A stretch of 64,000 bases of DNA. It comes from Halolamina pelagica. GTDB taxonomy: Archaea; Halobacteriota; Halobacteria; Halobacteriales; Haloferacaceae. The position numbers and the translations under genes were made by a program. Positions 13,434 through 37,300 of this stretch are shown here, piece by piece (position 1 is the first letter of the stretch; each line of letters begins with the position of its first letter). Below the pieces are notes generated by a model. It was not told where the DNA came from. It did no database searches and worked only from the letters and a program-made list of their open reading frames with translations. The stretch is taken from contig NZ_FOXI01000008.1 of NCBI RefSeq assembly GCF_900115675.1, positions 1 through 64,000 of the forward strand. The letters run 5' to 3'.

Positions 13434-13436
13434 AGT

Positions 13437-14264: not shown

Positions 14265-14265
14265 C

Positions 14266-15087: not shown

Positions 15088-15105
15088 GGTTGTCGTGTCT
15101 CCTAG

Positions 15106-15927: not shown

Positions 15928-15936
15928 CGTTCTGTG

Positions 15937-16758: not shown

Positions 16759-16760
16759 TG

Positions 16761-17582: not shown

Positions 17583-17614
17583 TGTGTGTAGTTGGTAGTG
17601 GGAGGGTGGTTAGC

Positions 17615-18604: not shown

Positions 18605-19696
18605 TCAGTCTTCGAGTCCAAGTTCACGACGTACGTCGTGGAAGACACTCAAGACGTCCTGCTCTTCTTCCTCGAATGGGAGGCGCTGGAGACGGTGTTC
18701 AAGCGCCATCCGTGCGACACGGCGAACAGTTCGAGGGGTGACCTCGTCAGCTCCCTCGTAAGCGGCCAGCGTCCGGGCGGCCCGGCGGAGCGTGATGTCA
18801 CCCCGGTGGCCGTCGACGTCGAGTTCGATGTTCATCCCCGCGATCAGCCGTGCGATATCGTCGTCGAGCTCTACCTCGTCGAGTCGCTCCCTGGCTGTCG
18901 CGATGTCGTTCCGTAGCGCCGCCTGCTCCTCAGCGTATTCGGCGCGGAACGCTTCGGGGTCGGCCTCGAATTCGGCACGGCGGCGGCTGATCTCGACACG
19001 ATCGTCCACTTCGTTGACCCCCTCCACGTCGACGACGAGGCCGAAGCGGTCGAGGAGTTGCGGTCGGAGGTCACCCTCTTCGGGGTTCATCGTGCCGACG
19101 AGGATGAACTCGGACGGGTGGCGGAACGAGACGCCCTCGCGTTCGACGATGTTCTCGCCCATCGCGGCGGCGTCGAGCAACACGTCGACGATGTGGTCGT
19201 CGAGCAGGTTCACCTCGTCGACGTAGAGGATGTTACGGTTGGCCTCGGCCAGTATCCCGGGTTCGAAATCCCGTTCCCCCGCCTGGACCGCGCGTTCGAG
19301 GTCGATGCTGCCGACAACACGATCTTCAGAGGCGTTTAGCGGTAGGTCAACCACCCGCATCGGCCGCGTCTCGATCGGCAGGTCCTCGCCAGCATCGTAT
19401 CGCTCGCGGCACTCATCGCACATCCGGTCTGGATCGGTCGGCGGACAGCTGTAGGGACAGTCTGCCACGGCCTCGATGTCTGGGAGCACTTCCGCCAGCG
19501 CCCGAACCGCTGTCGACTTGGCCGTCCCCCGCTCGCCCCGGATCAACACACCGCCCACGTCGCGGTTGACGGCGTTCAGCACGAGCGCACGCTTCATTTC
19601 AGTTTGGTCGACGATGGCCGAGAACGGGAACGTCCCGCCAGCCCGTGATTCGTCTTCGATCGTCTCGGTGTCGTGTGTGATGTCGTGGTCGGTCAT
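18605..19696 (-). CDS. AAA+ chelatase-like ATPase (Mg/cobalt-chelatase subunit I family)
   Basis: 363 residues starting at ATG 19696 ([17 protein letters not shown]). Walker A is [20 protein letters not shown], the ChlI/BchI form; there is a Cys-rich insertion CPYSC with CDEC near residues 90-110, sensor segments [15 protein letters not shown] and [19 protein letters not shown], and a lid domain. The partner with a VWA domain is 43 nt upstream. No CobN/ChlH-type catalytic subunit is in the window, so classical porphyrin metal insertion is not supported locally; a MoxR-like metal-insertion or activation role for a neighbouring enzyme is possible. The extension upstream of 19696 is not conserved. 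Confidence 0.85.
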
Positions 19697-19739
19697 CGAT
19701 TGGATTCGATCGTTTTCCCGCCAACTTCGTCGCGTTGTA

Positions 19740-21731
19740 TCATGCTGTCCCCTCTTCCCAGTCGAGTGCTTCGAGATCGACGTCACGCGGCAGGTCGATC
19801 AGGGGCAGGTAGTCGGCGCCCATCGTCGCCGCGAACTCTCGATTGCGCTCGTGGCGCTTCCGTTTCATTCGCTTGGCCTTCCGATCGGTCCAGATCTCGT
19901 CGGGCGTCGTGTCGAGTTTGTGCCCGGTGTCGACGAACACTCCCGGGATGTCGTCCTCGTCGAACAGCGCCGCAGCACGGAGCGCGTCCTCTCTGGCGTC
20001 ACTGTCCTCGCGGTACTCGACGTTCGACTGTCCGTCCGAGAGCACTACGACCAGCGGATAGAGATCTTGATCGCGACGTTTCTCACGTTCCACGAGCTGG
20101 TAGGCCTCGATCAAGCCGTGGGCCAGTGGCGTATTGCCCCCGACGGTCAATCGCGAGACAGCGTCGCGGGCTCGCCGATGGTTCCGAGTGGGTTCGACCA
20201 GCGTGAAGGCACTCTCGCCGCGGAAGACCACAACGGCGACGCGGTTTCGGGCGCGATAAGCGTCCTCGATCAGCGAGAGCAGCCCGCGTTTGGTCTCCAT
20301 CATCTGCCGGCCGCTCATCACGCTACCACTGGCGTCGACGACGAACACCACCAGCGCACGAGCGGTGCGCTCGCGGAGTTTCTGCCGGAGATCTCGTGGT
20401 TCGATCACTAAGTCGTCCCCCTCTCGCCCACGCTGTCGTTGGTGAGGTGCAGCCGCCCGAAGCGTCGCGTCGATAGCCACGTCGTCCACGTCTTCCTGTA
20501 TGCGCGATCGGACGTATCGACCGCTACGCACGTCAACGCGTGAGGGGGTGCGCCGTGCGAGCGCGCTCCGCATCGTCCGGTCCTTCTCCGGGTCGATAGC
20601 GGTCCGATCAACTGTGTAGGACTCCTCGCCTTCGGCGATCGGGATACCGCCGCCTTGCTGGTCGGCCGAGTCGTCGCCTTCGGGATCGTCCTCGTCGTCC
20701 TCACCCTCTTCAGGTTCGTCGTCATCGTTCCCGGTCGAGAGTACTGCCTCGCCGAAGCTCATCTCGGCGACGCCTTCCACCCGGTGCGGGAACGCGAAGT
20801 ATTGAGCCTCCGCGACGTGAGCGTCAGTCACCTCGTCCTCGCCATCGAGTGCCGCGAGAGCGCGTGCAACCCGGGAGACAGCGATGTCCGCGCGCATCCC
20901 GTGAGCGCGCTGCCGGAGCGCCTCGTAGGAGGCTTCGCGCTGCAGTTCCTCGGTCATTTCGACATCGGTGAGCCGTTCGCGCGCATCCCGCACTTGCTCG
21001 CGAAGCGCGTCCTGTTCGGCTGCGTATTCGGTGCGGAACCCCTCGGGATCGGCATCGAACGCCTCTCGACGTTCGGCGATTTCGACGCGCTCGGCTGGGT
21101 CGTCGCTGGCTTCGACGTCGACAATGATGTCAAAGCGGTCGAGAAGTTGGGGCCTGAGTCCGCCTTCCTCCGGGTTCATCGTCCCAACGAGGATGAACTC
21201 CGCCGGGTGGCGGAAGGAGACGCCCTCCCGCTCGACGATGTTCTCGCCCATCGCTGCTGCATCGAGCAGCACGTCGACGATGTGGTCGTCGAGTAGGTTC
21301 ACCTCGTCGACGTAGAGGATGTTACGGTTGGCCTCTGCAAGGATTCCCGGTTCGAACGTCGCCTCGCCAGCACCGACGGCTCGCTGCAGATCGATACTGC
21401 CGACGACGCGGTCCTCGGATGCGTTTAGCGGCAGGTCCACCACCTGCATCTGTCGTCGTTCGACCGGGAGATCAGTGTCAGCTGCGTGCCGCTGCCGGCA
21501 CTCGCTGCACATCCGGTCGGGGTCATCGGGTGGACAGCCGTAGGGACAGTCCGCGACGACATCGATCTCGGGAAGGACTTCCGCGAGCGCACGGACCCCG
21601 GTTGACTTGGCAGTCCCGCGCTCACCACGGAGCAGTACACCGTTCACCTCAGGGTTGACAGCGTTGATTAGTAACGCACGCTTCATCGCTTGCTGATCGA
21701 CTATCCCGGCAAACGGGTACGGTGCTTCCAT
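19740..21731 (-). CDS. AAA+ / VWA fusion, chelatase subunit D-like
   Basis: 663 residues starting at ATG 21731 ([16 protein letters not shown]); the TTG at 21746 would add five. N-terminal AAA+ module with [25 protein letters not shown] and CSEC cysteines, [11 protein letters not shown]; a central acidic linker (about 330-375); and a C-terminal VWA domain with the MIDAS DASGS (near residue 475), NTPLAHGL and VLSDGQSN. The VWA domain binds a target protein through a divalent cation. With the downstream AAA+ gene it forms a ring motor in an operon read away from the OYE gene. Its place inside a mycofactocin locus is unusual. Confidence 0.85.
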
Positions 21732-21842
21732 GCCAGTGCTTCCCAATGGGATATAAGGTTATAAACAAGTTCCGGACATCACACCGGCGGTACATCTTTA
21801 TCCTCGTCCGAACTACACGTGATAGAGAACCACATACAACCT

Positions 21843-23780
21843 ATGCCGGACATGCTTTTCACACCGAGACGCATCGGATCGGTGACTATCCCGAATCGGA
21901 CGGTGTTCTTGGCACACGAGACGGGGTTCGCGGAGGACGGGCTGCCGACGGAACGCGACGCGGCGTACTACGAGGCCCGGGCCCGCGGCGGCGTTGGTCT
22001 CATCATCGGCCCGTCGAGCATGCTCGTCCACCCGAGCGCGTCGAATCCGATGTACGCCTCGGGGTACGACCCTGACGTCGTCCCGCGTCTCCAGATGATT
22101 GCGGACGCAGTCCACGACTACGGGACTAAGGTGTTCGCCCAACTCCAGCACACCGGCGGGGAAGATACCGGCGAGCACGCGATGCGGGAGACATGGGCAC
22201 CTTCGGCGGTTCCGTCAGAGTACGGCTACGAGATGCCAAAGCGAATGGAGAAGGAGGATATCGAGGAGATCAAACTCGGCTTCGCCAAAACCGCTGAACA
22301 CGTCAAACGGGGCAATCTCGACGGGATCGAACTCAAAGCCGGCCACGACGGGATTCTTCGACAGTTCCTCTCGCCGAAGTACAACCACCGTGACGACGAG
22401 TACGGCGGGTCACTGGACAATCGTGTTCGGCTCGTGAACGAGGTAGTCGAGGCCATCCGGGACCGCGTCGGGGACGAGTTCCCCGTCGGCATCCGGCTCA
22501 CGCTGGACGAGATGGAGGACGGCGGTTACGACTACGACTACGCGGTCGAGGTGATGCGGCGCCTCCACCCGAGCCTGGACTTCATCGACTCCGACATCGC
22601 AACCATCTCGAAGCTGCACATCACTGATGCGCCGATGCACGCGCCGCTCGGCTACACCTCCGAGTACTACGGCGCGGCCAGGGAGGAAGTCGACATCCCA
22701 GTCATTGCGGCCGGTCGGATTAACGACCTCACGAAGGCCAACGACGTACTGGAGGAGGGCCGCGCGGACTTCGTCGGAATGTGCCGTCAGCTCATCGCCG
22801 ATGCCGACACGGTCCGGAAGGTCCGGCGCGGCGAGGACGAGGAGGTCACTCACTGTATTGCGTGCAACCAGAACTGTCTGGGCGGTATCCACACGAACGG
22901 TCACGTCGGCTGTATCCAGACGCCTCGATCGGGACGGGAGACGAAGATTCCCCACCTCGAGGACCGCGATCCGGCGTCGACGCCCCGGGACGTACTCGTC
23001 GTCGGCGGCGGACCCGCGGGCCTCTCTTTCGCGGTGACGGCCGCCGACCTCGGCCATCAGGTGACCATCCGTGAGCGAGAGGGACAACTCGGCGGCCAGT
23101 CAAACATCGCGACACAGGTCGACTCCAGACAGGAGTTCGGCGATGCCGTCCGGAACCTCAAGAACCAGCTGGGCAATCGTGACGTGACCGTCGAAACGAA
23201 CACCGAAGTCGTCCCCGAAGACGTCAGCTCCGACGCATGGGATGATGTGGTTGTCGCCATCGGCGCTAGTGAGAGCCAACCCGATCTGCAGGGACCGGAC
23301 GTTCACCGCTCGTGGGATGTCCTACGCGGCGAAGATGTCGGGGACTCGGTGATCGTCTTCGACAACAACAAGCACGCTGCAGGAGTCAGCGTCGCGGAGC
23401 ACCTCGTGGCCGACCACGACGTGACCTTCGTGACCACTTCCTACCATCCGGGTGATCAGCTAGAGGGGACGAACGTTCCGCCGTTTCTCGAAACACTGTA
23501 CGAGCATGGCGTCGACATCGAAACCCACGCCACCATCATCGGCTTCGAGGATAACACCGCCCAGTTGCTCAACGTCTACTCCGAGGACGTGAACACAGTC
23601 TCTGCTGACTCGCTCGTTGTTGCGGAACGTCGGGAAGCCCGGACTGGCCTCGCCGATGCGCTGGAAGAACAGGGATTCGCGGCCGATTCGATCCATCGTA
23701 TCGGTGACTGTGTCGCCCCGCGACTGATCGACAAAGCCATCTACGACGGCGAACTACTCGCCCGGGAGCTATCCGCATGA
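21843..23780 (+). CDS. FadH/OYE-family iron-sulfur flavoprotein oxidoreductase, second copy
   Basis: 645 residues starting MPDMLFTPRRIGSVTIPNR. FMN TIM barrel with HDGILRQFLSPKYNHRDDEY near residue 176, 4Fe-4S motif CIACNQNC near residue 340 with a fourth Cys 12 residues on (VGC), FAD/NAD Rossmann part with VVGGGPAGLSFAV. Similar in layout to the gene at 8236. It heads a plus-strand operon: FixB follows after 16 nt, then FixC, FixX, an SDR and FixA. ATG 21852 is an alternative start. In this setting it could link enoyl or quinone substrates to the ETF. AT-rich TTTATC at about 21796 is a possible TATA box. Confidence 0.88.
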   Translation: MPDMLFTPRRIGSVTIPNRTVFLAHETGFAEDGLPTERDAAYYEARARGGVGLIIGPSSMLVHPSASNPMYASGYDPDVVPRLQMIADAVHDYGTKVFAQLQHTGGEDTGEHAMRETWAPSAVPSEYGYEMPKRMEKEDIEEIKLGFAKTAEHVKRGNLDGIELKAGHDGILRQFLSPKYNHRDDEYGGSLDNRVRLVNEVVEAIRDRVGDEFPVGIRLTLDEMEDGGYDYDYAVEVMRRLHPSLDFIDSDIATISKLHITDAPMHAPLGYTSEYYGAAREEVDIPVIAAGRINDLTKANDVLEEGRADFVGMCRQLIADADTVRKVRRGEDEEVTHCIACNQNCLGGIHTNGHVGCIQTPRSGRETKIPHLEDRDPASTPRDVLVVGGGPAGLSFAVTAADLGHQVTIREREGQLGGQSNIATQVDSRQEFGDAVRNLKNQLGNRDVTVETNTEVVPEDVSSDAWDDVVVAIGASESQPDLQGPDVHRSWDVLRGEDVGDSVIVFDNNKHAAGVSVAEHLVADHDVTFVTTSYHPGDQLEGTNVPPFLETLYEHGVDIETHATIIGFEDNTAQLLNVYSEDVNTVSADSLVVAERREARTGLADALEEQGFAADSIHRIGDCVAPRLIDKAIYDGELLARELSA

Positions 23781-23796: not shown

Positions 23797-24801
23797 ATGA
23801 GTCAGATCGTGGCCGTGCCCGACGCCGACGATGTCGCGCTGCTCGACGAGGCCCACCGACTCGCCGAGGCGATCGGCGATGCGGGGCCGGCGTCCGAACC
23901 ACCCACCGTCGTCGCTGTCACGTTCGACGGCCTCGTCACACCGGACGAAGCCGCAGCGGGGGCTCCCGACGAGGTACTCCACGTGACCTCCGAGGAGGGG
24001 ACGTTCACATCGGGCGCAGCGGGGATCCGTCCCCGTTCACAGGCGCTCGCGGAACTCACCGACGACGCACGAGCAGTCCTGCTTCCCGATACCGCAGACG
24101 GCGTCGACCTCGCGGCTGCGACGGCGCGGCGACGACGGGGTGCCTGTGTCACCGACTGCCTACTGCGGGTCCGGGACGGCAAACTGCGGGCCGGTCGACC
24201 CGCGTACGGCGGCCGTGCGTACGCCGAGTTCGATTTCGAACGGGAGCCTCCTGTGGTGACGCTCAACACCGAATCACTCGGGACACCCGACCAGCAGCCC
24301 GAAGGTGAACCAACCCAACGAACCGTCGAGGTCGATGTGGACGACGACGACCGCATCCGGCACGTTGAGACGTTCGAGGTGCCGGAGGACGACCTCTCGA
24401 AGGCGCGCCGCATCGTCGCGGGTGGCTTCGGGTTGGGTAGTCCGGACGGTTTCGACCTGATCGAAGACCTCGCAGACGCATTCGGCGCCGCCATCGGCGC
24501 CTCGCGTCCCCCGTCGGATGAAGGCTGGGTGCCTTACGACCGCCAGATCGGCGTGACAGGCAAGGAAATCGACGTCGAGGTCTACGTCCCCTGCGCAATC
24601 TCGGGTGACTCCTACCACATGCGTTCGGTGAACGCCGACCATCTGATCCCGATCAATTCGGATCCCGAAGCGCGCGTCTTCAACTTCGCCGACATCGGTA
24701 TCGTCGGCGATGTGTACGAGTACGGACCTGCATTGGCCGAGGCAGTTCGCCGGGCGAGAACGGACAACGAGTCCGCAGCGGCCGAGGAGGTGGTCGAATG
24801 A
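23797..24801 (+). CDS. fixB: Electron transfer flavoprotein alpha subunit (FixB-like)
   Basis: 334 residues starting MSQIVAVPDADDVAL. The C-terminal FAD domain is clear: KARRIVAGGFGLGSPDGFDL, GASRPPSDEGWVPYDRQIG, then VPCAISGDSYHMRSVNADHL and FNFADIGIVGDVYEYGPAL. The N-terminal domain is divergent and acidic. With the FixA-like gene at 27265 it should form an ETF heterodimer receiving electrons from dehydrogenases and passing them to FixC. The ATGA overlap with FixC shows translational coupling. ETF-type subunits are known neighbours of mycofactocin genes in Actinobacteria. Confidence 0.9.
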   Translation: MSQIVAVPDADDVALLDEAHRLAEAIGDAGPASEPPTVVAVTFDGLVTPDEAAAGAPDEVLHVTSEEGTFTSGAAGIRPRSQALAELTDDARAVLLPDTADGVDLAAATARRRRGACVTDCLLRVRDGKLRAGRPAYGGRAYAEFDFEREPPVVTLNTESLGTPDQQPEGEPTQRTVEVDVDDDDRIRHVETFEVPEDDLSKARRIVAGGFGLGSPDGFDLIEDLADAFGAAIGASRPPSDEGWVPYDRQIGVTGKEIDVEVYVPCAISGDSYHMRSVNADHLIPINSDPEARVFNFADIGIVGDVYEYGPALAEAVRRARTDNESAAAEEVVE

Positions 24802-26148: not shown

Positions 26149-26199
26149 ATGAGTTCACACACACCACGAACTGACACCGATGGAGAGACAGAGCGATGA
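26149..26199 (+). CDS. Micro-ORF coupled to fixX (16 codons)
   Basis: ATG 26149 opens MSSHTPRTDTDGETER, whose stop TGA overlaps the FixX start as ATGA. The arrangement equals the coupled starts elsewhere in this operon, so it may be a translated leader in the only sizeable gap of the operon (26112-26195). It could also be chance. Confidence 0.3.
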   Translation: MSSHTPRTDTDGETER

Positions 26200-26486
26200 G
26201 TGTCCAGGACGATCTGGAGACGGTTGAGTGGGATGTGAGCGAGGACGCCCACATCACCGTCGACAACGAGCAGTGTATCACCTGCGAGGACAAGCCCTGC
26301 CTACACCTGTGCCCTGCGGAGTGCTTCGATTACCAGGAGGACCAGGAGGGCGGTATCTACTTCGCGTACGAACCGTGCGTGGAGTGTGGCGCCTGTATGG
26401 TCTTCTGTGCGAACGACCCCGACAAGGGCGCCGTCTCGTGGTCGAAGGCGGAGGGCGGCAAGGGCGTGGAGTTTGACTTCGGCTGA
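26196..26486 (+). CDS. fixX: Ferredoxin-like protein (FixX-like)
   Basis: 96 residues with cysteines CITCEDKPCLHLC (from about residue 28) and CVECGACMVFC (from about residue 62), the pattern of the FixX/ETF-QO ferredoxin domain. It completes FixC by carrying electrons to quinone. Placed between FixC (gap 84 nt) and the SDR (gap 2 nt). Confidence 0.92.
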   Translation: MSVQDDLETVEWDVSEDAHITVDNEQCITCEDKPCLHLCPAECFDYQEDQEGGIYFAYEPCVECGACMVFCANDPDKGAVSWSKAEGGKGVEFDFG

Positions 26487-26488
26487 CC

Positions 26489-27268
26489 ATGTACCTCGAT
26501 GACCAGACGGCTATCGTGACCGGCGGTGCAAGCGGGATCGGTGCGGCGACGTGTCGCATACTCGCTGAACGCGGCGCTGATGTCGTCGTCGCAGACCTCT
26601 CCGCCGAGGAGGGTGAGGGGTTGGCCGAGTCTATTGCTGGCGCAGACGGTGGCGACGCCTCGTTCGTCGAGGCCGACGTCAGCGACGAGGATGCCGTCGC
26701 AGGGATGGTTGAGCATGCCGAGAAGACGTTCGGGAGCGTAGACGTCCTCGTGAACAACGCTGCTGTCGCCTCACAGGAAGCTGATAGCCGGATCACGGAG
26801 TTCGATGACGACGCCTACGAGTTTCTGACCGGCGTGAACCTCAAGGGGCCGATGTATGCCGCGAAGCATGCGATCCCGGCGATGCTCGATACCGGCGATG
26901 GAACCGGTGTCGTGGTCAACAACGCCTCGATTGCCGCACTGATCGCGGAATCCGGGATGGACATCTACACTGCGACAAAGGGGGCGCTCGTCTCGCTGAC
27001 TCGATCGATCGCCGTCGAGTACGCACCCGATATCCGGGCGAACACAATCTGCCCTGGTGTCGTCGAGACGCCGATGCTCGAAGCCGCCATGGAATCGGAG
27101 GGAGACAGCGACATACCCGACACGATGGCGTCGATGATCGAGGAGACGCCGCTGGGGATCGCTGAGCCCGAAGACATCGGTCGTGCAATCGCGTTCCTCG
27201 CGTCCGACGACGCGGCATTCGTTACCGGGTCAACGATCCCCGTTGACGGAGGGTACACCGCACAATGA
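26489..27268 (+). CDS. Classical SDR oxidoreductase (FabG-like) inside the fix operon
   Basis: 259 residues. TGGASGIGAATC near residue 12, NNAAVAS, catalytic Ser in NNASIAAL, YTATKGALVSL (Y-x3-K), and the C-terminal PVDGGYTAQ typical of FabG-like SDRs. It lacks the mycofactocin-type insertion, so it likely uses exchangeable NAD(P). Its position between FixX and FixA, with stop and start overlapping (ATGA) at 27265, indicates joint expression with the ETF module. Substrate unknown. Confidence 0.9.
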   Translation: MYLDDQTAIVTGGASGIGAATCRILAERGADVVVADLSAEEGEGLAESIAGADGGDASFVEADVSDEDAVAGMVEHAEKTFGSVDVLVNNAAVASQEADSRITEFDDDAYEFLTGVNLKGPMYAAKHAIPAMLDTGDGTGVVVNNASIAALIAESGMDIYTATKGALVSLTRSIAVEYAPDIRANTICPGVVETPMLEAAMESEGDSDIPDTMASMIEETPLGIAEPEDIGRAIAFLASDDAAFVTGSTIPVDGGYTAQ

Positions 27269-28122
27269 AGGCGATCGTCGCCACGCGGCCCGAGCCGCAC
27301 CGGGTCGTCGACGATGATGGAAACGCAGAGCCGTACCGGCCCCAGCTGAGCATCGACGACCGGGTCGCGCTGGCAGCCGCCCATGACGTTGCCGAGGAGG
27401 TGACAGCGGTCGGCATCGGCGGTGATCCGGCAAAGCGCTGTGTTCGTGCGGCGCTCGAACGTGGCGCCGACGAGGGGCTTCATGTGGCCTACGATCCCAT
27501 CGAGGAGGCTGCCGGGGACAAGTACGCGACCGTACTGGCCCGCGTCGCCGCCCGCGAATCACCAGACGTCGTCGTCGTGGGACAGTCGTCATCGTTCGCG
27601 GGATCTGAGATCGCGACGTTTGTCGGCGAACAGCTGGACTGGCCCGCTGCGACGCGGGTAACACGACTCGGCACGCCGAATATCGACACCGAGGTTACGG
27701 TCGATCAGGGCGAGCTCGCCGTCCAGCGGAAACTGGCGATCGGCCGGCAAGAGGCAGTCGTTGTCGAGTCACCGACAGTACTGGGGATCGACGCCGGGTA
27801 TACGGACCCTGACCGTGCACCGCTCTCGACGATCGTCGCCGGCCAGCAAGCCGAAATCGAAACAGTACCCTTGGAAGATGTCGCGCCGGGAGAGTCCCGG
27901 TTCTCGATGAGTGTCGGCGCTGCAACGATGGAAGACGTGACCCCAAACGAACGCTGGGGGCGCGGGCGCCCACCGAGAACCGGCACCGTCGAGCAACGCA
28001 TCTACCGGATGCTCGGCCGCGGGACCGACGAGGGGACGAGCGCCGGCGAGCGCATCGATGCTCCGCCCGAGGAAGCGGCCGAGCAGGTCGTCGACTATCT
28101 CCGACGGAACGAACTGCTCTAG
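27265..28122 (+). CDS. fixA: Electron transfer flavoprotein beta subunit (FixA-like)
   Basis: 285 residues. IDDRVALAAAHDVAEEVTAV near residue 30, GGDPAKRCVRAALERGADEG, the adenine-nucleotide-binding VVVGQSSSFAGSEIATFVGE near residue 110, and ALERGADE-type helix. Partner of the FixB-like gene. It ends the plus-strand operon; its TAG stop overlaps the TAG stop of mftF on the other strand at the shared CTAG (28119-28122). Because FixA is split from FixB by three genes, the order B-C-X-SDR-A differs from bacterial fixABCX. Confidence 0.9.
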   Translation: MKAIVATRPEPHRVVDDDGNAEPYRPQLSIDDRVALAAAHDVAEEVTAVGIGGDPAKRCVRAALERGADEGLHVAYDPIEEAAGDKYATVLARVAARESPDVVVVGQSSSFAGSEIATFVGEQLDWPAATRVTRLGTPNIDTEVTVDQGELAVQRKLAIGRQEAVVVESPTVLGIDAGYTDPDRAPLSTIVAGQQAEIETVPLEDVAPGESRFSMSVGAATMEDVTPNERWGRGRPPRTGTVEQRIYRMLGRGTDEGTSAGERIDAPPEEAAEQVVDYLRRNELL

Positions 28123-29669
28123 GAAACGAGGCGGAAGCGTGCGCTCGGTCGGAGGTGGGCGAGCGTCCCGTGGACGAGTGCACCACGGTAGACGCCGAGC
28201 TGGTAGCCGAGGTGGTCGGCAAGGTAGTAGCCAGCGTAGGCAGTTCTTGACGTCTCGGGATCGTGGACGCGGTATTCGACGATCGCCGGGAGGGCGACCG
28301 TAACACTGAGAGCGGTGGCAATACTCGGCCCAAGCCACGACGGCCCGACGACCCAAGAGATTCCACCGAGCACCGCGATGGGGAGCACGTAGTAGCGTGT
28401 CACCTCCTGTGAGAGTGCGTACGCCGACGATAGTCGCTTGCGGCCCCAGCTCTCCACGAGGTCGCTCAGCGAAACTGCTGGTGTGAGCCGACGGGCACGC
28501 CGCCAGCCGCGCCAGCCACGAACGCCAGCAGTAAGTCCGAGTACAGCCCCAGCGAATACGACTGCGCCAGTCGCGACCGTTCCGGTGCCGACGACACCAG
28601 TCACCGCGAGTGCGAGGACCAGCAGTACGGCAACCGGGACGTCGACGCTACTGTCCTCACGGTCGTGTTCGCTCGCCAGGAGCGCTTCGGAAGCACCATA
28701 GGTTCCTCGCCGGGCGGCGAATTCCCGGGGGCTGTCACGGTATGTATGCTCCACCACGCCGGTCGGGGTGTACACCACCGTGTACCCGGCGTCCAGTGCA
28801 CCCCAGCAGACATCCACGTCTTCGGCAATGTTTCGCTCGGGAAATGCGACCGTTTCGAACACTGCACGACGGCCGACGAGGTTTGCGGTTGGGAGGTACG
28901 GTGTGGTTCCGGCGGGGTCGACGCGGGCAGCGTACCCCCCCATGTCGAGCGAAGAGTTCACGCCCTCGTAGACGCTCGCAGCGCTCTTCCCTGCCGGCCG
29001 GACGCGGCCACCGACGAGGTCCGCGGCTGCGAGACACGGGACGAGATCGGCGAGCCACGGAGGCCGCGGTCGACAGTCGGCGTCGGTAAATGCGATCACA
29101 TCGTGGTGCGCGGCGTCGACGCCACGATTCCGGGCGGCACCGATACCGATCGGGTCGTCCGGTTCGCCGACTCGAACTAGGTGGATATCGCTATCGTCCT
29201 TCGCCCGGTCCTCGACTAATTCTCGCGTTCCATCGGTCGAGCCGTCGTCGACGACGACAATCTCGTAATCAGGGTAATTCAGTTCGGCCAGCGCATCGAG
29301 GCAGTGGACGAGGTTTTCGCGGTCGTTCCGAACCGTGACGACGACCGACGTCGGCGGACGATGCTGGAGGTCACGTGCCGGTCGCCACTCGAGGAAGTCC
29401 CGTGTGGCGAGCCGTTCGAAAAGTCGGTCGACGGTCTCACGGTCGTGACCTGTCTCTGCCGCGATGCTCGCGGGTGAACGGAATTCGGACGTAGAGAGCG
29501 CCTCAATAAGCGGCACAGCGGCATTGTTGAGCCGTGTCGCAGTCAGCGGCTGTCGCGAGACCACCACGTTGTCGGCGATCGAGACGGTGTCCCGGCGCCG
29601 ATACTCGCCCGCGTTGCTAGTGGTTCCGTCGTCGGTCCGTTCGGCAGAAGCGGCAGCGGGGGGCGACAC
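28119..29669 (-). CDS. mftF: Mycofactocin glycosyltransferase MftF
   Basis: 516 residues. The N-terminal part (about 25-100, DNVVVSRQPLTATRLNNAA) looks like a PqqD/RRE-type winged module; then a family-2 glycosyltransferase with SVVVTVRNDRENLVHCLDAL, VVVDDGSTDGT, FTDADCRPRPPW and RNIAEDVDVCW; then three to four membrane segments near the C-terminus. In Actinobacteria MftF adds glucose units to (pre)mycofactocin. No ATG fits; the GTG at 29669 (VSPPAAASAER) lies 4 nt after the mftC stop and is chosen as the coupled start. Sugar donor and product in archaea are unknown. Confidence 0.88.
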   Translation of the reverse strand: MSPPAAASAERTDDGTTSNAGEYRRRDTVSIADNVVVSRQPLTATRLNNAAVPLIEALSTSEFRSPASIAAETGHDRETVDRLFERLATRDFLEWRPARDLQHRPPTSVVVTVRNDRENLVHCLDALAELNYPDYEIVVVDDGSTDGTRELVEDRAKDDSDIHLVRVGEPDDPIGIGAARNRGVDAAHHDVIAFTDADCRPRPPWLADLVPCLAAADLVGGRVRPAGKSAASVYEGVNSSLDMGGYAARVDPAGTTPYLPTANLVGRRAVFETVAFPERNIAEDVDVCWGALDAGYTVVYTPTGVVEHTYRDSPREFAARRGTYGASEALLASEHDREDSSVDVPVAVLLVLALAVTGVVGTGTVATGAVVFAGAVLGLTAGVRGWRGWRRARRLTPAVSLSDLVESWGRKRLSSAYALSQEVTRYYVLPIAVLGGISWVVGPSWLGPSIATALSVTVALPAIVEYRVHDPETSRTAYAGYYLADHLGYQLGVYRGALVHGTLAHLRPSARFRLVS

Positions 29670-29673
29670 GGTC

Positions 29674-30633
29674 TCAGTCGCCCGAGAGAATTGCCCGCAG
29701 CTGGGGGTCCTCGCCGTCGGGGTCGGAACTCCCCATCGCGACCGCTGGACAGCCTTCGTGATCGTCGATCTGATTGCGAAGGTTGGCGATTTCGTCCCAC
29801 GCAGTCTGGAAGCCGTCCTCGACGACGTTCCCCGAAGCGAGGTGGTCCCACTGCGTGAACGCACACGGGAACACGTCGCCCGCGGGGTCGACCAAACAGG
29901 TCATCGAGCCCGCACCGCATTGCTTGAGCGTGTTGTTGCGCACCTCGCCCAGCGCATTGAGGTAGAAGAAGGAGTCTCCCGTCCGTACGTCAGGGTGGTC
30001 CTCGATCCAGCCGTGGAGCCAGCGAATCTGTTCCTCGGTCAGGCGGAACTCGTCCCAGGTATCCTCGCCACGGCCGCTGGGGCGGAAGCGGTTCAGTCGC
30101 AGGCCGGCGCCGTGGGCCTCGGCGAGCTCGTAAATCTCCGGGAGGTCATCGACGTTCTGTCGAGTAACCACGGTGTTGACGGTCGTCCCGATGTCGCGAT
30201 CCTCCAAGCGCTCCAGCGCGTCGACGACCTGCTCGTACACACCCTCACCGCGGATCGCGTCGTTTTCGGCCTGCAGTCCGTCCATACTCACTTGCAGGAA
30301 CAGAGGATCCATCGCCTCGACCCGGTCGAGCGTCTCCTCGTCGAGTTGAGTCCCGTTCGTACTCACGCACGTCGAGATGTTCCGATCGGTGAGTTCCTCG
30401 AGCAGTTCCAGCATGTCGGGACGGACGAACGGCTCGCCGCCGCCGATGTTGACCTGGAAGACGTCCATCTCATCGAGTTCGGCGATGAACTGGTGAGCCT
30501 GCTCGGTGGTGAGTTCGTTCGGAAGCTGGTGGCCGGGGCCGCTCCCCGAGAGACAGTGGTCGCAGTGGAGGTTACACCCCAACGTCACTTCCCAAGTGAT
30601 AGTGACCGGCGCCGAGAGCGGTTCACTCGACAT
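29674..30633 (-). CDS. mftC: Mycofactocin radical SAM maturase MftC, short form
   Basis: 319 residues starting MSSEPLSAPVTITWEVTLG. Radical SAM motif C20-x3-C24-x2-C27 (CNLHCDHC), NIGGGEPFVRPD, VSTNGTQLDEE. In known systems MftC decarboxylates the C-terminal Tyr of MftA and cross-links it to Val. The C-terminal SPASM part keeps CGAGSMTCLVDPAGDVFPC but the later CX2CX5CX3C run is reduced to a single Cys (EGCPAVAMG), and the protein is some 70 residues shorter than actinobacterial MftC (about 390). ATG 30633 overlaps the end of mftB by 11 nt. Confidence 0.92.
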   Translation of the reverse strand: MSSEPLSAPVTITWEVTLGCNLHCDHCLSGSGPGHQLPNELTTEQAHQFIAELDEMDVFQVNIGGGEPFVRPDMLELLEELTDRNISTCVSTNGTQLDEETLDRVEAMDPLFLQVSMDGLQAENDAIRGEGVYEQVVDALERLEDRDIGTTVNTVVTRQNVDDLPEIYELAEAHGAGLRLNRFRPSGRGEDTWDEFRLTEEQIRWLHGWIEDHPDVRTGDSFFYLNALGEVRNNTLKQCGAGSMTCLVDPAGDVFPCAFTQWDHLASGNVVEDGFQTAWDEIANLRNQIDDHEGCPAVAMGSSDPDGEDPQLRAILSGD

Positions 30634-30865
30634 CCGCAAGCACCCCACGGGAGATGAGCGTCTCGACGATGGCCGGCGAGAACTCACGTTCGACAGCCTC
30701 ACGCGACCGCGGCTGGTCGTCAACGAACTCCAGCACGTCGATGACGGTGTCACTCACTTCGTACATCGACGCGTCTTCATAGCCGTAGTTCTCGTGGTCG
30801 TACACCAGTCCTCCGTCGGCCTCGCGGCGGAACTTGACGTAGTCGGGTCTGGCGACGGCCGCCAT
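30623..30865 (-). CDS. mftB: Mycofactocin RRE chaperone MftB (PqqD-like)
   Basis: 80 residues starting at ATG 30865 (MAAVARPDYVKFRREADGG), 1 nt after the mftA stop. PqqD-like features are VYDHENYGYEDASMYEVSD and the C-terminal helix segment REFSPAIVETLISRGVL. MftB binds the MftA leader and delivers it to MftC. The size fits the family (about 80-110 aa). Its end overlaps mftC, indicating coupled expression. Confidence 0.9.
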   Translation of the reverse strand: MAAVARPDYVKFRREADGGLVYDHENYGYEDASMYEVSDTVIDVLEFVDDQPRSREAVEREFSPAIVETLISRGVLADVE

Positions 30866-30866
30866 C

Positions 30867-31007
30867 TCAGTAGACGCCGCAGATCCCGTCGATTCGGAGC
30901 TCCTCCTCGAAGAGGTCTTCCTCGATGTCCGGTTCTTCGGGGGTAGACTGGTCGGTATCCGAGGTAGACTTGTCGGTGTCAGGACTCGAATCCGCTGATT
31001 GTGACAT
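30867..31007 (-). CDS. mftA: Mycofactocin precursor peptide MftA
   Basis: 46 residues from ATG 31007: an acidic Ser/Thr/Asp leader (MSQSADSSPDTDKSTSDTDQ), then EEDLFEEELRIDGICGVY at the C-terminus. The terminal IDGICGVY matches the MftA core IDGMCGVY with Ile for Met; the last Val-Tyr is the part turned into the redox cofactor. Gene order mftA-mftB-mftC-mftF with spacings of 1, -11 and 4 nt is a tight operon. The leader is more acidic than bacterial ones, consistent with halophily. Confidence 0.95.
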   Translation of the reverse strand: MSQSADSSPDTDKSTSDTDQSTPEEPDIEEDLFEEELRIDGICGVY

Positions 31008-31031
31008 GCGGTAAGCATACACAATGGGTTG

Positions 31032-31039
31032 GTAAATAG
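31032..31039 (-). promoter_or_regulatory. TATA box (CTATTTAC) for mftABCF
   Basis: Read on the minus strand, CTATTTAC ends 24 nt upstream of the mftA ATG, the spacing for a leaderless transcript. The divergent mftE side has AATATA at 31080-31085. The region 31008-31107 thus holds both promoters. Confidence 0.5.
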
Positions 31040-31107
31040 ATTTTGATGCCTGTGGTACTTTCCTCATAGAGGGATTCGGAATATACGCTATCCGGGAGAA
31101 TTGTCTT

Positions 31108-31920
31108 GTGTCGTCCACCCAGGGTTCCCGTATGGAAGATAACGAACTGGAACGGGTGGCCCTGTCTGAGCTGAAGTGGCCGGAAATTGAAGCGACACTC
31201 GAAGCGGGAACTGATACGATTATCCTCCCACTCGGGGCGACAGAACAACACGGACCGCATCTACCGCTTGATACGGATACACGGCTCGCGGCAGCGCTCG
31301 CAAAGCGCATTGCTCACCGTCTCGGAGAGACACTCGTTGCACCGACAGTACCCGTCGGTCCCTCTGAAGAACACACAGGGTTTCCCGGCACCATCTCTAT
31401 CTCTCCGGACACACTCACCGATCTCCTCCGGGACTACGTCTCATCGTTCGGGGCGCAAGGGTTCGAACGTGTTGTGCTCCTCCCCGGCCACGGTGGTTGG
31501 TTCCCCGTTGTTGAGGCCGCTTACCCAGAACTTTCGCAAGCGGAAGGGATCGAGGTAGTCGCTGTGACAAGGTTACAACGGTATCTAGATCTGCTCCAAG
31601 AGGGGTTAACGACCGCCGGAATCAACGTGAACGAACCCGTCGTCCACGCAGGTGCCAGTGAAACCTCGATACTCCTCGCAATTGATCCGTCCCTGGTTGA
31701 CGACCAATTACCGGAGGGGCACACAGGAACAGTATCTGCAGCCAACTTATTTACTGAAGGAATTGGGGCGTATGATGAGAATGGCGTGCTCGGCGATGCC
31801 CGGCCAGCAACTGCCGATGCTGGGGAGATTATACTTGAACACGTAGCTATCGCCTATACCGAGTACATTCGTGAGGAATTTCGCGAGCTGGACATCAATA
31901 ATTCGGAGAAGAATTTGTAA
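31108..31920 (+). CDS. mftE: Mycofactocin peptidase MftE (creatininase family)
   Basis: 270 residues. Metal-binding creatininase motifs: LPLGATEQHGPHLPLDTDT (near residue 41), PSEEHTGFPGTISIS, LLPGHGGW (usual NGHGGN) and VHAGASETS. MftE releases the modified Val-Tyr dipeptide from MftA. The start is uncertain: a GTG at 31108 lies 22 nt after an AATATA box (leaderless), whereas ATG 31132 (MEDNELERVALSELKW) is 46 nt away and has no visible Shine-Dalgarno. It is divergent from mftA, and lower in GC than its neighbours. Confidence 0.92.
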   Translation: MSSTQGSRMEDNELERVALSELKWPEIEATLEAGTDTIILPLGATEQHGPHLPLDTDTRLAAALAKRIAHRLGETLVAPTVPVGPSEEHTGFPGTISISPDTLTDLLRDYVSSFGAQGFERVVLLPGHGGWFPVVEAAYPELSQAEGIEVVAVTRLQRYLDLLQEGLTTAGINVNEPVVHAGASETSILLAIDPSLVDDQLPEGHTGTVSAANLFTEGIGAYDENGVLGDARPATADAGEIILEHVAIAYTEYIREEFRELDINNSEKNL

Positions 31921-31955: not shown

Positions 31956-33479
31956 TTAGAATTGCTCGGTGGGGCCGTCAAATTCCTCGTCGACTTGCTC
32001 GTACATCTCATCCGGAAACGGGAGACTTCCCCAGATCGAGTAGGGACACTGGTCCTGGCCGATACAGTAGCGCTGTAGATCGTCGTTATCGCAGTTCATC
32101 GGTAACGGCGTGTCGCCGTCGATTGTGTTCGAGAATTCGTAGCGAACCTGGTATTCGGTCTCCTGCTCGTCGTACCACGGCCACCTGGAGAAGACGTCCT
32201 TGAGGTCCGCGACAATCTCGTCGAGGCTGCTGTCTTGGTACTGCGGCAGCCACATCACCATCCGCGCGAAGTTGTAGAGGTCCTTCCGGACGGGCTTCTT
32301 CTCGTGTAGTCGCTCCTCCATATTCGCCATACAGGGGAGCTCGAAGAGGTCCTCGATCTCCCGGACCTCGATCTGTTCGGCGCCGGTTCCGGCTCGTCCG
32401 ATTCGGTACGTATTGACGCGCCCGTCGCGGTCGATGGTGACGGCCGAGTGGGACTCGTGGTCGGCCAGCGTCTTCGCGAGACTGCTGGGACTCGAGATCC
32501 AGTCCGTCACGGAGGATTCCCACTCATCCTCGGAGTCGTACGCCGTAACCGCTCGATAGAGCTCCTTCGCCGTGTGGAACTCACCCTTTTGCGCCACGTC
32601 ATCGGACGCGTCACTCAGGGCTCGTCGGAGGACGCGGATCGTCCGTTCCCCACGGTCCCAGTTCCGCCAGATGCGCTCGTGGTGGCCGGTCTCGAGGGAG
32701 CGGTCGATCCGCTCCGTGATCGCCGACTCGTTCGTGGTCAGCCACGTCAGCTGGTCGTCGGAAAGCCCGTCTTCTTGCACCCGCAGGAGCTTCTTGAACG
32801 CCCGCTCTGCGTAGTTCCGATACTTGCTGTCGAAATCACCGACCGGGACGTACAGCTTGTTGTCTTTCACTCGCGTCAGTATCTCCCCGCCACCGTCACT
32901 CCTCGTCGACGCCTCGTCCTCCCGAACAAGGCATTTGCGTGACGCCGCAGCCATCGGGATTTCGAGATAGAGGCCATCCCCGAACTCCGGCATCTCCGTG
33001 ATGCCTGTACAGACCCGACCCGGATGCGGGCCATCCTCACCTGGCTCCTTGCTGTACAGTACGTCGGCGATGTCCTGCTGGAGCGACCCATCGCCGTGGG
33101 CGCGGATGAGGGAGGCGAGATTGTTGACGTACAGCTCTCGGATGTCGTAGAGCACCTGGATATTCCGGGGCGACGCGTGCTTAAACTTCGGGTGCTCTTT
33201 CACACAGATCGCACTCAACGTCGCGAGCACAGCGAGCGTCCCCGGCTCGTCGACAAACGACTCTTCGGCGGCGTCGGCACGAACCTGCTCTTTGAACGCC
33301 GCCGTCCCGAACCGCTCGACGTCGTTCACGAGGTCCTCGGGCTGGTCCTCGCCGTCGACGACGTATCGATTGTACCCACGCGTAAACAGCTGGTTGATGC
33401 GGGTCTCACCGTACTCCAGCGGGAGTGCCGCAACCCGATACGCCATGTCCTCGTCGTCGGTGGGGGTACTCGGACTCAT
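31956..33479 (-). CDS. PriL-like primase large subunit with Fe-S domain (element-encoded)
   Basis: 507 residues. The C-terminal third resembles the iron-sulfur domain of archaeal PriL: LPCMANMEERLHEKKPVR near residue 382, a EYQVRYEFSNTI strand, and then MNC, RYC and QDQCPYS near residues 465-485, giving four cysteines in the PriL order. The N-terminal part (YGETRINQLFTRGYNRYVV) is PriL-like in size. ATGA overlap with the PriS-like gene indicates a primase complex for plasmid or transferred-strand replication. Distinct from the host primase by its divergence. Confidence 0.72.
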   Translation of the reverse strand: MSPSTPTDDEDMAYRVAALPLEYGETRINQLFTRGYNRYVVDGEDQPEDLVNDVERFGTAAFKEQVRADAAEESFVDEPGTLAVLATLSAICVKEHPKFKHASPRNIQVLYDIRELYVNNLASLIRAHGDGSLQQDIADVLYSKEPGEDGPHPGRVCTGITEMPEFGDGLYLEIPMAAASRKCLVREDEASTRSDGGGEILTRVKDNKLYVPVGDFDSKYRNYAERAFKKLLRVQEDGLSDDQLTWLTTNESAITERIDRSLETGHHERIWRNWDRGERTIRVLRRALSDASDDVAQKGEFHTAKELYRAVTAYDSEDEWESSVTDWISSPSSLAKTLADHESHSAVTIDRDGRVNTYRIGRAGTGAEQIEVREIEDLFELPCMANMEERLHEKKPVRKDLYNFARMVMWLPQYQDSSLDEIVADLKDVFSRWPWYDEQETEYQVRYEFSNTIDGDTPLPMNCDNDDLQRYCIGQDQCPYSIWGSLPFPDEMYEQVDEEFDGPTEQF

Positions 33480-34360
33480 TCGTCGATCACCTCGGGTGTC
33501 GTCGACCGAACGTCGAACGCCGGGCTCTCGATTGGTTGAACGATGCTACAGACGTCGGCGTGCAGCGAGTAAGGCAGGCGAGCGACACGTCGACGGTCGG
33601 CCGTCACGACGGGGTCGATCGGGATGTCGTACGTCTCGAGAAGGAGGTCGTTCAACACCTCGCGACTCTGCTCGTCGTATCGGTGCGCCGGGTCGGTATC
33701 CAGCAGGTAGACGTGGACACCCTGCCCGCTGTACACGACCATCGTCTCCTCGGCGTCGAAATTGTCCTCGAAGATGTCGCGCACCTCGAACCCGTACTCG
33801 ATGGCGCGGTCGACGTCTTCGAAGGCGTACGGATACCCCTCGGGAGCGGCGTCAAGGATACCCGCAGTGTCGAGGAGCGCATCGTCGTCCCGATTCTCGA
33901 TGTCTGCCGAGACCATCTCGTCCGCTCGGTCTCGGGCGATCTCTTTGGCGTCAATATCGACGAGGAGGACCCACGGCCGTTCCCAGTGATCCAGCGCGTA
34001 GTAGACGGCGTCGGACCGTGGGTCCGGTTGCTCCAATACCTCCGGATCAGCAAGCGCGAACTTGCTCCGCCCCAGCGGGTCGTTGCGAGCGGGGTGTCGA
34101 ATGAACTCGACGACGTCCTCGAAGTCGTCGAACTCGGGCGTCGTTCGGTCGCCCGACGCATCTGTTTGCCACGTATCCCGCCGGATGAAGTCCTTGTCCG
34201 GCACCTCGTCTTTGCGCACCGGGTGGGACTCGCGGAAGGCGACGGCGTACTGTTTCGGGCCGGTCGCCGTGATGAATCCCGGCAGGTCATCCAGATAGCG
34301 GGGGAATTCTTCAGCGTAGTAAGCGTAAATCTCCTCGCGGGTCGCCTGTCGCCAGGTCAT
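33476..34360 (-). CDS. PriS-like archaeo-eukaryotic primase catalytic subunit
   Basis: 294 residues with AEP motifs in order: LLVDIDAKE (catalytic DxD, near residue 130), VYSGQGVHVYLLD (near 208) and RRRVARLPYSLHAD (near 258). These are the three signature motifs of PriS. Overlaps by ATGA with the coupling-protein gene upstream and with the PriL-like gene downstream, so it belongs to the end of the conjugation operon and may make primers on the incoming single strand. Confidence 0.85.
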   Translation of the reverse strand: MTWRQATREEIYAYYAEEFPRYLDDLPGFITATGPKQYAVAFRESHPVRKDEVPDKDFIRRDTWQTDASGDRTTPEFDDFEDVVEFIRHPARNDPLGRSKFALADPEVLEQPDPRSDAVYYALDHWERPWVLLVDIDAKEIARDRADEMVSADIENRDDDALLDTAGILDAAPEGYPYAFEDVDRAIEYGFEVRDIFEDNFDAEETMVVYSGQGVHVYLLDTDPAHRYDEQSREVLNDLLLETYDIPIDPVVTADRRRVARLPYSLHADVCSIVQPIESPAFDVRSTTPEVIDE

Positions 34361-37300
34361 TGGTTGAGTTCTTGATCGAGATTTTTGAAGCCCCGAACGG
34401 TGGTTAGGCCCGCAGCATCGAACTCATCGACGGCGTCTCTGATGGTCGCGAACGACCGTGCCGCCCGCCCGCTGACCCGCTCGCCGATCCGATCGGCGTC
34501 GGCAAGGCTATCCAGGACGTCGAGCGCCGTCTCGCGATTGTTGAAGGCCCAGATTGCGTCGGCGTCCACCGCGCTGAGTTTGTCGTAATCCTCGACCGGG
34601 GCGTGCCGGTTGTTACTCGCGAGCTCTGCTTCGCCGGCCCAGACGAGATCGCCGTCCGCGTCGAAGCCGGCCACGTCCAGTACCGTGCCGTCGTCGGTTT
34701 CGTAGTACGGCTCCACGCGACCGACGTCGTCCCGCTGCTGGAGCCACAGCTCGAGGAGCCGGACGCCAACCTTGTGTGGCGTTTTCTCGCCGAGATCCCC
34801 CGCTCCTGGCCCCGCCTTCAATTCTTTCCCGAGGAGGTCTCGACCGTCTGGGAGGACGGTGTAGTACTTGCGCCCCGCCGCGGAGTCCGCTTCCAGGAGG
34901 TCCTGCTCCGTGAGCCGCTCCACATGGAGGTCGTCGTATTCGTCTCGAAGCTGGCTCATTCTGTCCAGTAGCGTGTACTCGTTGTCCTCTCGGTTCATCA
35001 CGTCGAGGACCCGGTTCAGGAACCGGACGTCGTCACGGCTGAGCCCGCGTTGTCGGAGTTCGTCATCGGGGACGGGTACGCTGCTTTCCTGAACGGGCGT
35101 TGCCCCGTTCTCCGGCTGCGTTGCTTGGTCATCAGCTGGTTCCTCGTCCGTCTCGGTAGTCTGTCCGAACAGGGGACTCATCTCGGACTCGTCTGCATCT
35201 GGGTCGCTGTCCGTTGCGGGCTGGGTGGTCGACGTCGACGCGTCCTCGGTCGTCGATTCGCTGATGAACGCGGATTGCGTCGGGTCGGTTGCTGCATCGC
35301 CGTCGGCAGCCGAGCCCGTCGTTTCGGCCCCCGAACTCCCCCAGCCAGTCTCCTCTGGGGCAGTGCTCGACTCAGTTGGCTCTGTCAGCCCGTACTGGGC
35401 CTGTGTCCGTTCGACCATCCGTGGCCGGGACACGGACTCGAAATGGTCTTCCTGGGGCTCTGTGAGCGGCTGGTCGCTTTCTGGATGCCCCGGCGCAATC
35501 GGGAGCGGCTTCAGCGAAAACGGTGGCGGACCAGTCTCCCCGAACGACGGACTCGGGAGTTGCGCAATCCACTCGCCGCTCGGCAGCGTGTTGATCCGGT
35601 TGCGGAGTTCGGTCGGAGAGAGGTCCTCGTGCGCGAGCGACTCCGCGAGGTCGCGCTCGATCGAGATGTTCCCGATGAGCTTCGTCTTGATGTTGTTCAG
35701 CACCTCGTCGTAGGCCCGCTCATTCCGGTTCCGAACCTGTTCAGGGAACTGCATCACAAGCCCCATACTCAGCCCGAACGACCGGCCCTGCGGCAGTAGC
35801 TGCTCGGAGACCAGCTTCGTCGACGCGACCGGCGCCGCCTCCTCGATGATGAGGTTCGTGAGCTTCTCGTAGTCGGTCTGACCGTCGCGCCGGCGCACCT
35901 GGACGGCATCCCAGAGGTTGCTCAACAGCAGGAGTGTGATTGCGCGCTGTGCCTCCGGCCGGAGGTCGCCGAGGTCGAAGATGATGGTAGCGTCTTCGTC
36001 GAGGAACTCGCGGAAGTCGAAGCGGTTGTCGACGTACTCGCCGGCGTCATTCTGCTCGGGGACGTGGCTGAAGATCCGCCGTAGATGCGCGTCCTCTTTG
36101 AGCTTGTCGAGGCGGTTCCCGACGGCGTCCATCGACACTTGGAACTGGTGGTTGTCCTTCGCGAAGTGGCGCGTCAGCGATTCCTCGATGTTCTGGTTGT
36201 CCGCCGAGACCGGGGGAATCGTCTGATCGCGCTGCATCCGGAGCGCGGCGGCGAAGAGGTCGTCCAGCCCGAACACGTCGTTCCCGTACTCCTCGTCGAA
36301 CAGCGCCTTGATCAGATAGCTCAGAATCTCGTTCGCGACGAACGCCTGCCCGTACTGTTCACGACCCATAATCATCCGGAGGATGTCGTGGAAGTGGTCG
36401 ACCTTGTCCTGAATCGCGTCCTCACGGTTGCGACCGGCCTCGAGCGCGGGCCGGATGTCGAAGAAGGAGAACGCGGGGATGGTCTCCGGGACGCGGAAGT
36501 GGTAGACGTCGTCGAGACCACCGAACCGCTCGTAGTGGCAGCGCAGGTAGTTCTCACACATCCCGTCTCCCTTCGGGTCGACGAGGACGACGGGGCCACC
36601 CGTCGACTCGCGAAGCGAGAGGGCGTCGTTGATGATGGCCTTCGACTTCCCGCCACCAGTCGAGGCGAACCGCCCGTAATGCGTCGGCAACAGATCTGGC
36701 GGGATCCGGATGGGGTCCGGCCGTGGCTCACCATTCTCGTCGAGCGCGTAGCCGATGGCCATCCCGTCCTGGAACTGCTGGATCAGATCCGGATTGGGCC
36801 ACGGAAGCGGGTTCCGACTCTGCTGTTCGGCCCTCGTTCCCCGCGTCCCTTCGACGGTCAACTGTTCGGAGGAGGGGACGAGGACGAAGTTCGCGAGCTC
36901 CGTCCCGCTGAGGACCAGCTCGGGACGGGTCTTCCCTCGTCCCGTCGTCAACTCGCGATTGAGGAGTCGCTGGAGAGCGGCCCGTGCCTTCTTCTCCTTC
37001 GTTTTCTCCCGGAAGCCGCTGTCCCGGAGGCGTTGCCCCTCGACCTCATAGAACGGCCCATCAAGCGGGTCGAACACGGGGAGGAGCGAGTCCATCCGGC
37101 CATCGAGGTCGTCGCGGGTGTTGTCGGTGGGGACGCCGACGGCCCGGATGTTGACCGTGAACGACCGTTTGGCGTTCTTCGCGTCGATGTACTCGATCCG
37201 CTTCTCGACGGCCTCGCTGAGCTGCCGGTCGTCCTGGTCGCTCCGCTGCTCCTCGACCTCGAGCAACGAACCGACGACTTCCTGGAAGAACGTATCCCGG

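Follow-up and report, generated by a model that had tools for sequence, protein, structure and literature searches.

A variant mycofactocin locus without MftD in Halolamina pelagica and other haloarchaea, and the flavoprotein genes that accompany it

The mycofactocin genes of the locus

This study examined a mycofactocin locus of the haloarchaeon Halolamina pelagica on contig NZ_FOXI01000008.1 (assembly GCF_900115675.1); the whole 64,000-nt stretch analysed is called the window here, and all coordinates refer to it. The locus comprises mftA, mftB2, mftC and mftF together with a divergent mftE, and it adjoins genes for flavoproteins of the old yellow enzyme (OYE) family, for electron transfer flavoprotein (ETF) and for FixC/FixX-like proteins. 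Families were assigned with NCBIfam profiles and their curated cut-offs. The core genes are as follows.

30867-31007, minus strand: mftA, mycofactocin precursor of 46 amino acids (aa) with the C-terminus ELRIDGICGVY; TIGR03969, 33.5 bits (cut-off 25)
30623-30865, minus strand: mftB2, variant of the recognition chaperone for ribosomally synthesized and post-translationally modified peptides, 80 aa; NF043018, 139.6 bits (cut-off 62)
29674-30633, minus strand: mftC, radical S-adenosylmethionine (SAM) maturase, 319 aa; TIGR03962, 308.7 bits (cut-off 265), profile positions 7-288 of 339
28119-29669, minus strand: mftF, glycosyltransferase of family 2, 516 aa; TIGR03965, 277.8 bits (cut-off 280)
31132-31920, plus strand: mftE, creatininase-family peptidase, 262 aa; TIGR03964, 160.4 bits (cut-off 172)

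All five genes were found intact where the first-pass annotation had placed them, with the minus-strand spacings that it had given, namely 1 nt between mftA and mftB2, -11 nt (an overlap) between mftB2 and mftC, and 4 nt between mftC and mftF. The profile search that it had proposed gave matches above the cut-offs for MftA, MftB2 and MftC, whereas MftF and MftE remained slightly under theirs, and the mftB2 protein matched the variant MftB2 model only, with no match to the classic MftB model at E <= 0.01. Despite its score, MftF has TIGR03965 as its best family by far and is syntenic with the annotated mftF of Haloterrigena turkmenica; TIGR03964 is likewise the best family of MftE, which is 58% identical to the annotated H. 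turkmenica mftE. A search of plasmids for MftB2 returned matches in haloarchaea only and none in bacteria. MftE does not occur in every mycofactocin system. In two haloarchaeal genomes (G094 and G216, loci L019 and L020), no close mftE was found: the nearest proteins of the creatininase family, encoded on other contigs, show 38% and 36% identity, and a general peptidase may replace MftE there.

The first-pass annotation had also considered that the peptide motif might occur by chance in unrelated short open reading frames. Exactly one peptide with the C-terminus [RK]IDGICGVY was found per locus, adjoining mftB2 and mftC, at all 15 haloarchaeal loci on which the motif and cysteine counts are based, and a degenerate DNA pattern of the MftA motif occurred once in the window against 0.03 occurrences expected. 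These two results rule out a chance motif. The H. pelagica locus is a true mycofactocin locus, though a variant one, and likely encodes a functional cofactor pathway.

That a haloarchaeon makes a related cofactor, as the first-pass annotation proposed, is an existing inference, since archaeal mycofactocin genes have been known since 2011. Haft reported all components on the H. turkmenica plasmid pHTUR01 and counted five short-chain dehydrogenase/reductase (SDR) clients and one zinc-dependent client (PMC3023750). Public annotation names mftA, mftB2 and mftC on the H. turkmenica plasmid and in Halolamina sp. CBA1230; the two haloarchaeal plasmid records so annotated are NZ_CP054588 and NC_013744. 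Our survey of 391 Halobacteria genomes detected MftC above the cut-off in 13 (H. pelagica included), belonging to 7 of 86 genera, a rare and patchy distribution.

Absence of MftD and the accompanying flavoprotein module

The core had been described as complete-looking, a description that does not hold for MftD. The MftD model (cut-off 471 bits) returned only a 25-bit fragment, and no family member, from the whole H. pelagica genome, and no protein above the cut-off was found in any of the 13 MftC-bearing haloarchaeal genomes. Deletion of mftD in Mycobacterium smegmatis abolishes mycofactocin and leads to the accumulation of the amine intermediate AHDP (PMC7491314), and therefore a substitute is needed if an MftD-less pathway works. 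As MftD is found in most but not all mycofactocin systems (Haft, PMC3023750), its absence does not exclude the locus from membership among them.

Next to the core, an operon runs convergently to mftF, and a further gene of the OYE family lies elsewhere in the window.

21819-23780, plus strand: OYE2, flavoprotein of the FadH/OYE family; best family TIGR03997, 622.7 bits (cut-off 793)
23797-24801, plus strand: EtfA-like, ETF alpha subunit; best family mft_etfA NF038209, 123.7 bits (cut-off 240); PF00766, PF01012
24798-26111, plus strand: FixC-like flavin adenine dinucleotide (FAD) protein of the ETF:quinone oxidoreductase type; best solved relative 7koe_C (FixC), E 3.5e-57
26196-26486, plus strand: FixX-like ferredoxin; NF011993 among its matches; 70-100% identity in other MftC genomes
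26489-27268, plus strand: SDR dehydrogenase within the ETF operon; TIGR03971, 164.9 bits (cut-off 300), and so outside the mycofactocin-coupled SDR family
27265-28122, plus strand: EtfB-like, ETF beta subunit; best family mft_etfB TIGR04503, 76 bits (cut-off 200); PF01012
8221-10146, plus strand: second OYE-family flavoprotein, 42% identical to OYE2; best family TIGR03997, 443.8 bits (cut-off 793)

The EtfB gene overlaps mftF by 4 nt. OYE2, EtfA, FixC, FixX and EtfB lie near mftC in 13/13 MftC genomes, which also all carry the second OYE, and EtfB is kept at every MftC locus with enough sequence. A copy of OYE2 that is 73-96% identical occurs in each of the 12 other MftC genomes, and the best match among the 378 genomes without MftC is at most 39% identical; these co-occurrence counts, like those for the client SDRs below, are uncorrected for shared ancestry.

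Both OYEs comprise a flavin mononucleotide (FMN) barrel, a 4Fe-4S site and dinucleotide domains, the same three-part architecture as histamine dehydrogenase, trimethylamine dehydrogenase and 2,4-dienoyl-CoA reductase, from which they are remote in sequence, and they resemble histamine dehydrogenase across most of their length. In both, the first GxGxxG motif is kept and the second, presumably the NADPH site of the 2,4-dienoyl-CoA reductase-type enzymes, is absent; in the archaeal and Streptomyces OYEs it is replaced by a (V/L)xD-type stretch, as aligned in histamine dehydrogenase. The four 4Fe-4S cysteines are retained in all archaeal OYEs but one paralogue; the second OYE of one genome (G371, locus L030) has lost two of the four (RSIQSNQKCL). 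Trimethylamine and histamine dehydrogenases oxidise amines, trimethylamine dehydrogenase hands its electrons to ETF, and FixC-type proteins transfer ETF electrons to quinone. Taken together with the architecture and the lost second GxGxxG, this knowledge suggests a route from OYE through EtfAB and FixC/FixX to quinone.

The same genes were found in bacteria. Among ten bacterial plasmid clusters, seven of them from Streptomyces, four (Thermomicrobium, Mycolicibacterium, Tsukamurella and Streptomyces NBC_00080) have mftD and neither OYE2 nor ETF, and the other six, all from Streptomyces, lack mftD and carry OYE1, OYE2, mft_etfA, FixC, FixX and mft_etfB immediately behind mftC. MftD and the OYE/ETF module occurred together in none of the ten, which was borne out when the whole records of nine of these clusters were checked. 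MftG was absent from the OYE-type clusters examined. Clusters that lack MftD and bear TIGR03997 were noted in Saccharopolyspora in 2024 by BGCFlow (PMC11162802), and S. erythraea makes a methylated mycofactocin as cited there (ref. 98 in PMC11162802). MftG is missing from a quarter of the genomes that have MftC, and what replaces it has been stated as an open question (PMC11778925). On three Streptomyces plasmids (L037, L038 and L063), the MftD-less clusters adjoin type I polyketide synthase genes, which hints at a polyketide pathway as the user of the cofactor in these cases.

Compared with the canonical mftABCDEF(G) cluster of Mycobacterium and relatives, H. pelagica shares the MftA core IDG[MI]CGVY, MftC, MftF, MftE and SDR clients, but it has MftB2 in place of MftB, a divergent mftE, ETF/FixCX and two OYE genes, with no MftD and with no MftG seen in the island. 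The Streptomyces plasmid and Saccharopolyspora clusters share the FadH/OYE flavoproteins and the lack of mftD with the archaeal loci, and the Streptomyces clusters also share EtfA, FixC, FixX and EtfB. The MftD-less bacterial clusters differ in having classic MftB and a single operon, whereas the archaea have two convergent operons, and the archaeal OYEs, about 38% identical to the bacterial ones, were duplicated separately in the tree.

The radical enzyme and the surrounding island

The identification of the radical SAM gene as MftC was confirmed above the cut-off, but the loss of the part of its SPASM domain that binds auxiliary cluster II (Aux II) had been missed. In alignments, MftC keeps the radical-SAM cysteines C20/C24/C27 and the auxiliary cluster I (Aux I) cysteines C239/C246/C257/C295, all invariant at the archaeal loci, and all four Aux II cysteines are absent at 15/15 loci. 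The seven-cysteine SPASM motif, CX9-15GX4C-gap-CX2CX5CX3C-gap-C, is thus incomplete throughout. All ten bacterial MftCs, including those of the MftD-less clusters, retain the Aux II cysteines, with the pattern CGAG...C...C...CxxCxxxxxCxxxC...C, whereas the archaeal pattern is CGAGSMTC...PC...EGC and the protein ends about 24 residues on. Since Aux II is retained by MftC in the OYE-type Streptomyces clusters, its loss goes with the archaeal lineage rather than with the absence of MftD.

Archaeal MftC retains counterparts of the Aux I ligands of anSMEcpe, which we take to be residues 255, 261, 276 and 330. The Aux II ligands of that enzyme are Cys317, 320, 326 and 348 (PMC5715301). The archaeal cysteine pattern is that of the Twitch domain, a shortened form of the SPASM domain with a single auxiliary cluster (PMC6231123). 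Between genera, archaeal MftCs share 75-98% identity, and they end at the same point at all loci. A shortening by frameshift or assembly error was ruled out by the identical end at 15 independent loci and by the start of mftF 4 nt on. A scan of the genome collection with the archaeal MftC alignment found haloarchaea only, plus two remote radical SAM proteins (28% and 20% identity). The AlphaFold2 model of MftC, built with nine close sequences, had a mean pLDDT (predicted local distance difference test) of 47, with the C-terminal domain under 50, and was left unused for cluster geometry.

The H. turkmenica plasmid pHTUR01 and Halolamina sp. CBA1230, with MftCs 86% and 98% identical to that of H. 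pelagica, respectively, have the same gene order, lack the same Aux II cysteines and have no MftD. H. turkmenica differs in having no SDR between FixX and EtfB, and other differences are minor.

The remaining genes of the island are as follows.

12606-18436, minus strand: seven tandem mycofactocin-coupled SDR dehydrogenases (predicted clients); TIGR03971, 299-335 bits (cut-off 300)
10990-11784, minus strand: further mycofactocin-coupled SDR; TIGR03971, 306.7 bits (cut-off 300)
19740-21746, minus strand: AAA+/VWA chelatase-D-like protein; TIGR02442, 670.4 bits (cut-off 779); in 9/12 other MftC genomes
18605-19786, minus strand: AAA+ chelatase-I-like ATPase; TIGR02030, 452.3 bits (cut-off 467)

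Six of the seven tandem SDRs pass the TIGR03971 cut-off, with one slightly under (299.2). Client SDRs of this family occur in all 13 MftC genomes, mostly in 5-6 or more copies, and in 6 of the 378 others, in one copy each. The first-pass annotation had limited the unit to 28119-31920, which is too narrow: the gene content suggests that the functional unit also takes in the OYE2-EtfB operon, the second OYE and seven or more genes for mycofactocin-coupled SDRs. The chelatase-like pair (ChlI/ChlD, of a putative cobaltochelatase type; 18605-21746, minus strand) stands between OYE2 and the SDR array, and the pair is retained in 9 of the 12 other haloarchaea with MftC.

About 36 nt past the end of mftE, a region begins (31956-35900) that is 90-95% identical to the primase-associated modules of many haloarchaeal plasmids; it is followed by genes for a TrbL/VirB6-like conjugation protein (41516-42631), a phage-type integrase (47463-48701) and a DDE transposase (51111-52733), which point to a plasmid or an integrative element. 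The position of the island against a widespread mobile backbone fits its patchy distribution.

Interpretation of the variant system

The lack of MftD and the cut-down radical enzyme point to an alternative way to make and recycle the cofactor. The explanation that we regard as probable is a haloarchaeal variant mycofactocin system in which the OYE flavoproteins oxidise AHDP, the reduced cofactor or both by way of ETF and FixCX to quinone. Its catalytic roles and direction of electron flow are proposed here from gene content and order, profile matches, the cysteine pattern, the genome-wide lack of MftD-family proteins and co-occurrence. MftB2 would hold MftA while MftC, working with the radical-SAM and Aux I clusters only, would decarboxylate and cyclise the C-terminal Val-Tyr; MftE would then free the core and MftF would add sugars. 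Without MftD, one or both OYEs may oxidatively deaminate AHDP to the redox-active ketone, may reoxidise the reduced cofactor, or may do both. Electrons would pass from OYE to EtfAB, to FixC/FixX and to the quinone pool, replacing MftD, MftG or both, and the neighbouring mycofactocin-coupled SDRs would be the users of the cofactor.

Several points weigh against this explanation. OYE2 is nearer to 2,4-dienoyl-CoA reductase (2.4e-75) than to histamine (3e-48) or trimethylamine (3e-41) dehydrogenase, and its 4Fe-4S spacing is reductase-like. With the mycofactocin-associated models from bacteria, the scores of archaeal EtfA, EtfB and OYE2 all lie under the curated cut-offs, and the bacterial comparison covers ten clusters on plasmids, seven of them from Streptomyces. 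A distant FMN-dependent dehydrogenase, matched in pieces of at most 154 bits and lying outside the island, is present in 5 of the 13 MftC haloarchaea and could in principle act there, although H. pelagica is without one. In addition, no biochemistry was found for any archaeal component in the open-licence literature.

The OYE-ETF-FixCX module might instead only reoxidise reduced mycofactocin, as a substitute for MftG, with an unlinked enzyme deaminating AHDP. ETF and quinone oxidoreductases of the FixC type serve as outlets for electrons, and the MftG-less state of the OYE-type clusters, with the replacement of MftG an open matter (PMC11778925), agrees with such a role. However, it leaves the function of MftD unexplained in a genome without any MftD-family protein, and the Streptomyces OYE genes hold the very position of mftD directly after mftC; we therefore consider a role in reoxidation only to be unlikely, albeit the strongest competitor.

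More doubtful still is a product that ends at AHDP or another non-deaminated form, chemically unlike mycofactocin, with the OYEs being catabolic enzymes of the same island. The absence of MftD from 13/13 genomes and the differences of MftC and MftB2 from their bacterial forms would suit it, but at least seven SDRs that reach or almost reach the cut-off of the mycofactocin-coupled family and co-occur with MftC imply a redox-active cofactor, and an MftD-less Saccharopolyspora makes mycofactocin on the citation given above (PMC11162802). A decaying plasmid acquisition with a damaged, functionless MftC, to which the patchy distribution, the plasmid-type neighbourhood, the lost C-terminal cysteines and the lack of an mftE near mftC in a few genomes might be ascribed, is very improbable given that MftC is intact and conserved across genera with invariant catalytic cysteines, that the MftA core is invariant and that the gene set is co-inherited.

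In the open-licence literature, no paper was found in which OYE, ETF and FixCX are united as a substitute module or in which the pattern is carried over to archaea. So far as this literature shows, three observations are new: archaea consistently lack MftD and co-inherit an OYE/ETF/FixCX module; the bacterial clusters sampled here show the same mutually exclusive division into MftD and OYE types; and archaeal MftC has cleanly lost the Aux II ligands.

We tentatively propose, with rather less confidence than in the variant haloarchaeal system itself, that a second, MftD-independent mycofactocin route is common to haloarchaea and some Actinobacteria, with OYE/ETF/FixCX in place of MftD and MftG, and that the haloarchaeal MftC carries out both steps of its chemistry with a single auxiliary cluster. 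MftD makes the redox-active ketone and MftG returns electrons to respiration. A gene module that stands in the place of both, in archaea as well as in bacteria, is a direct candidate for what replaces MftG in the genomes that lack it. The role of Aux II in SPASM enzymes has been called unclear in a review (PMC9012708). A natural MftC clade that keeps the Aux I ligands and lacks those of Aux II makes this role testable in the very family that gives SPASM its M, and, if the proposal is true, Aux II would be dispensable for mycofactocin formation.

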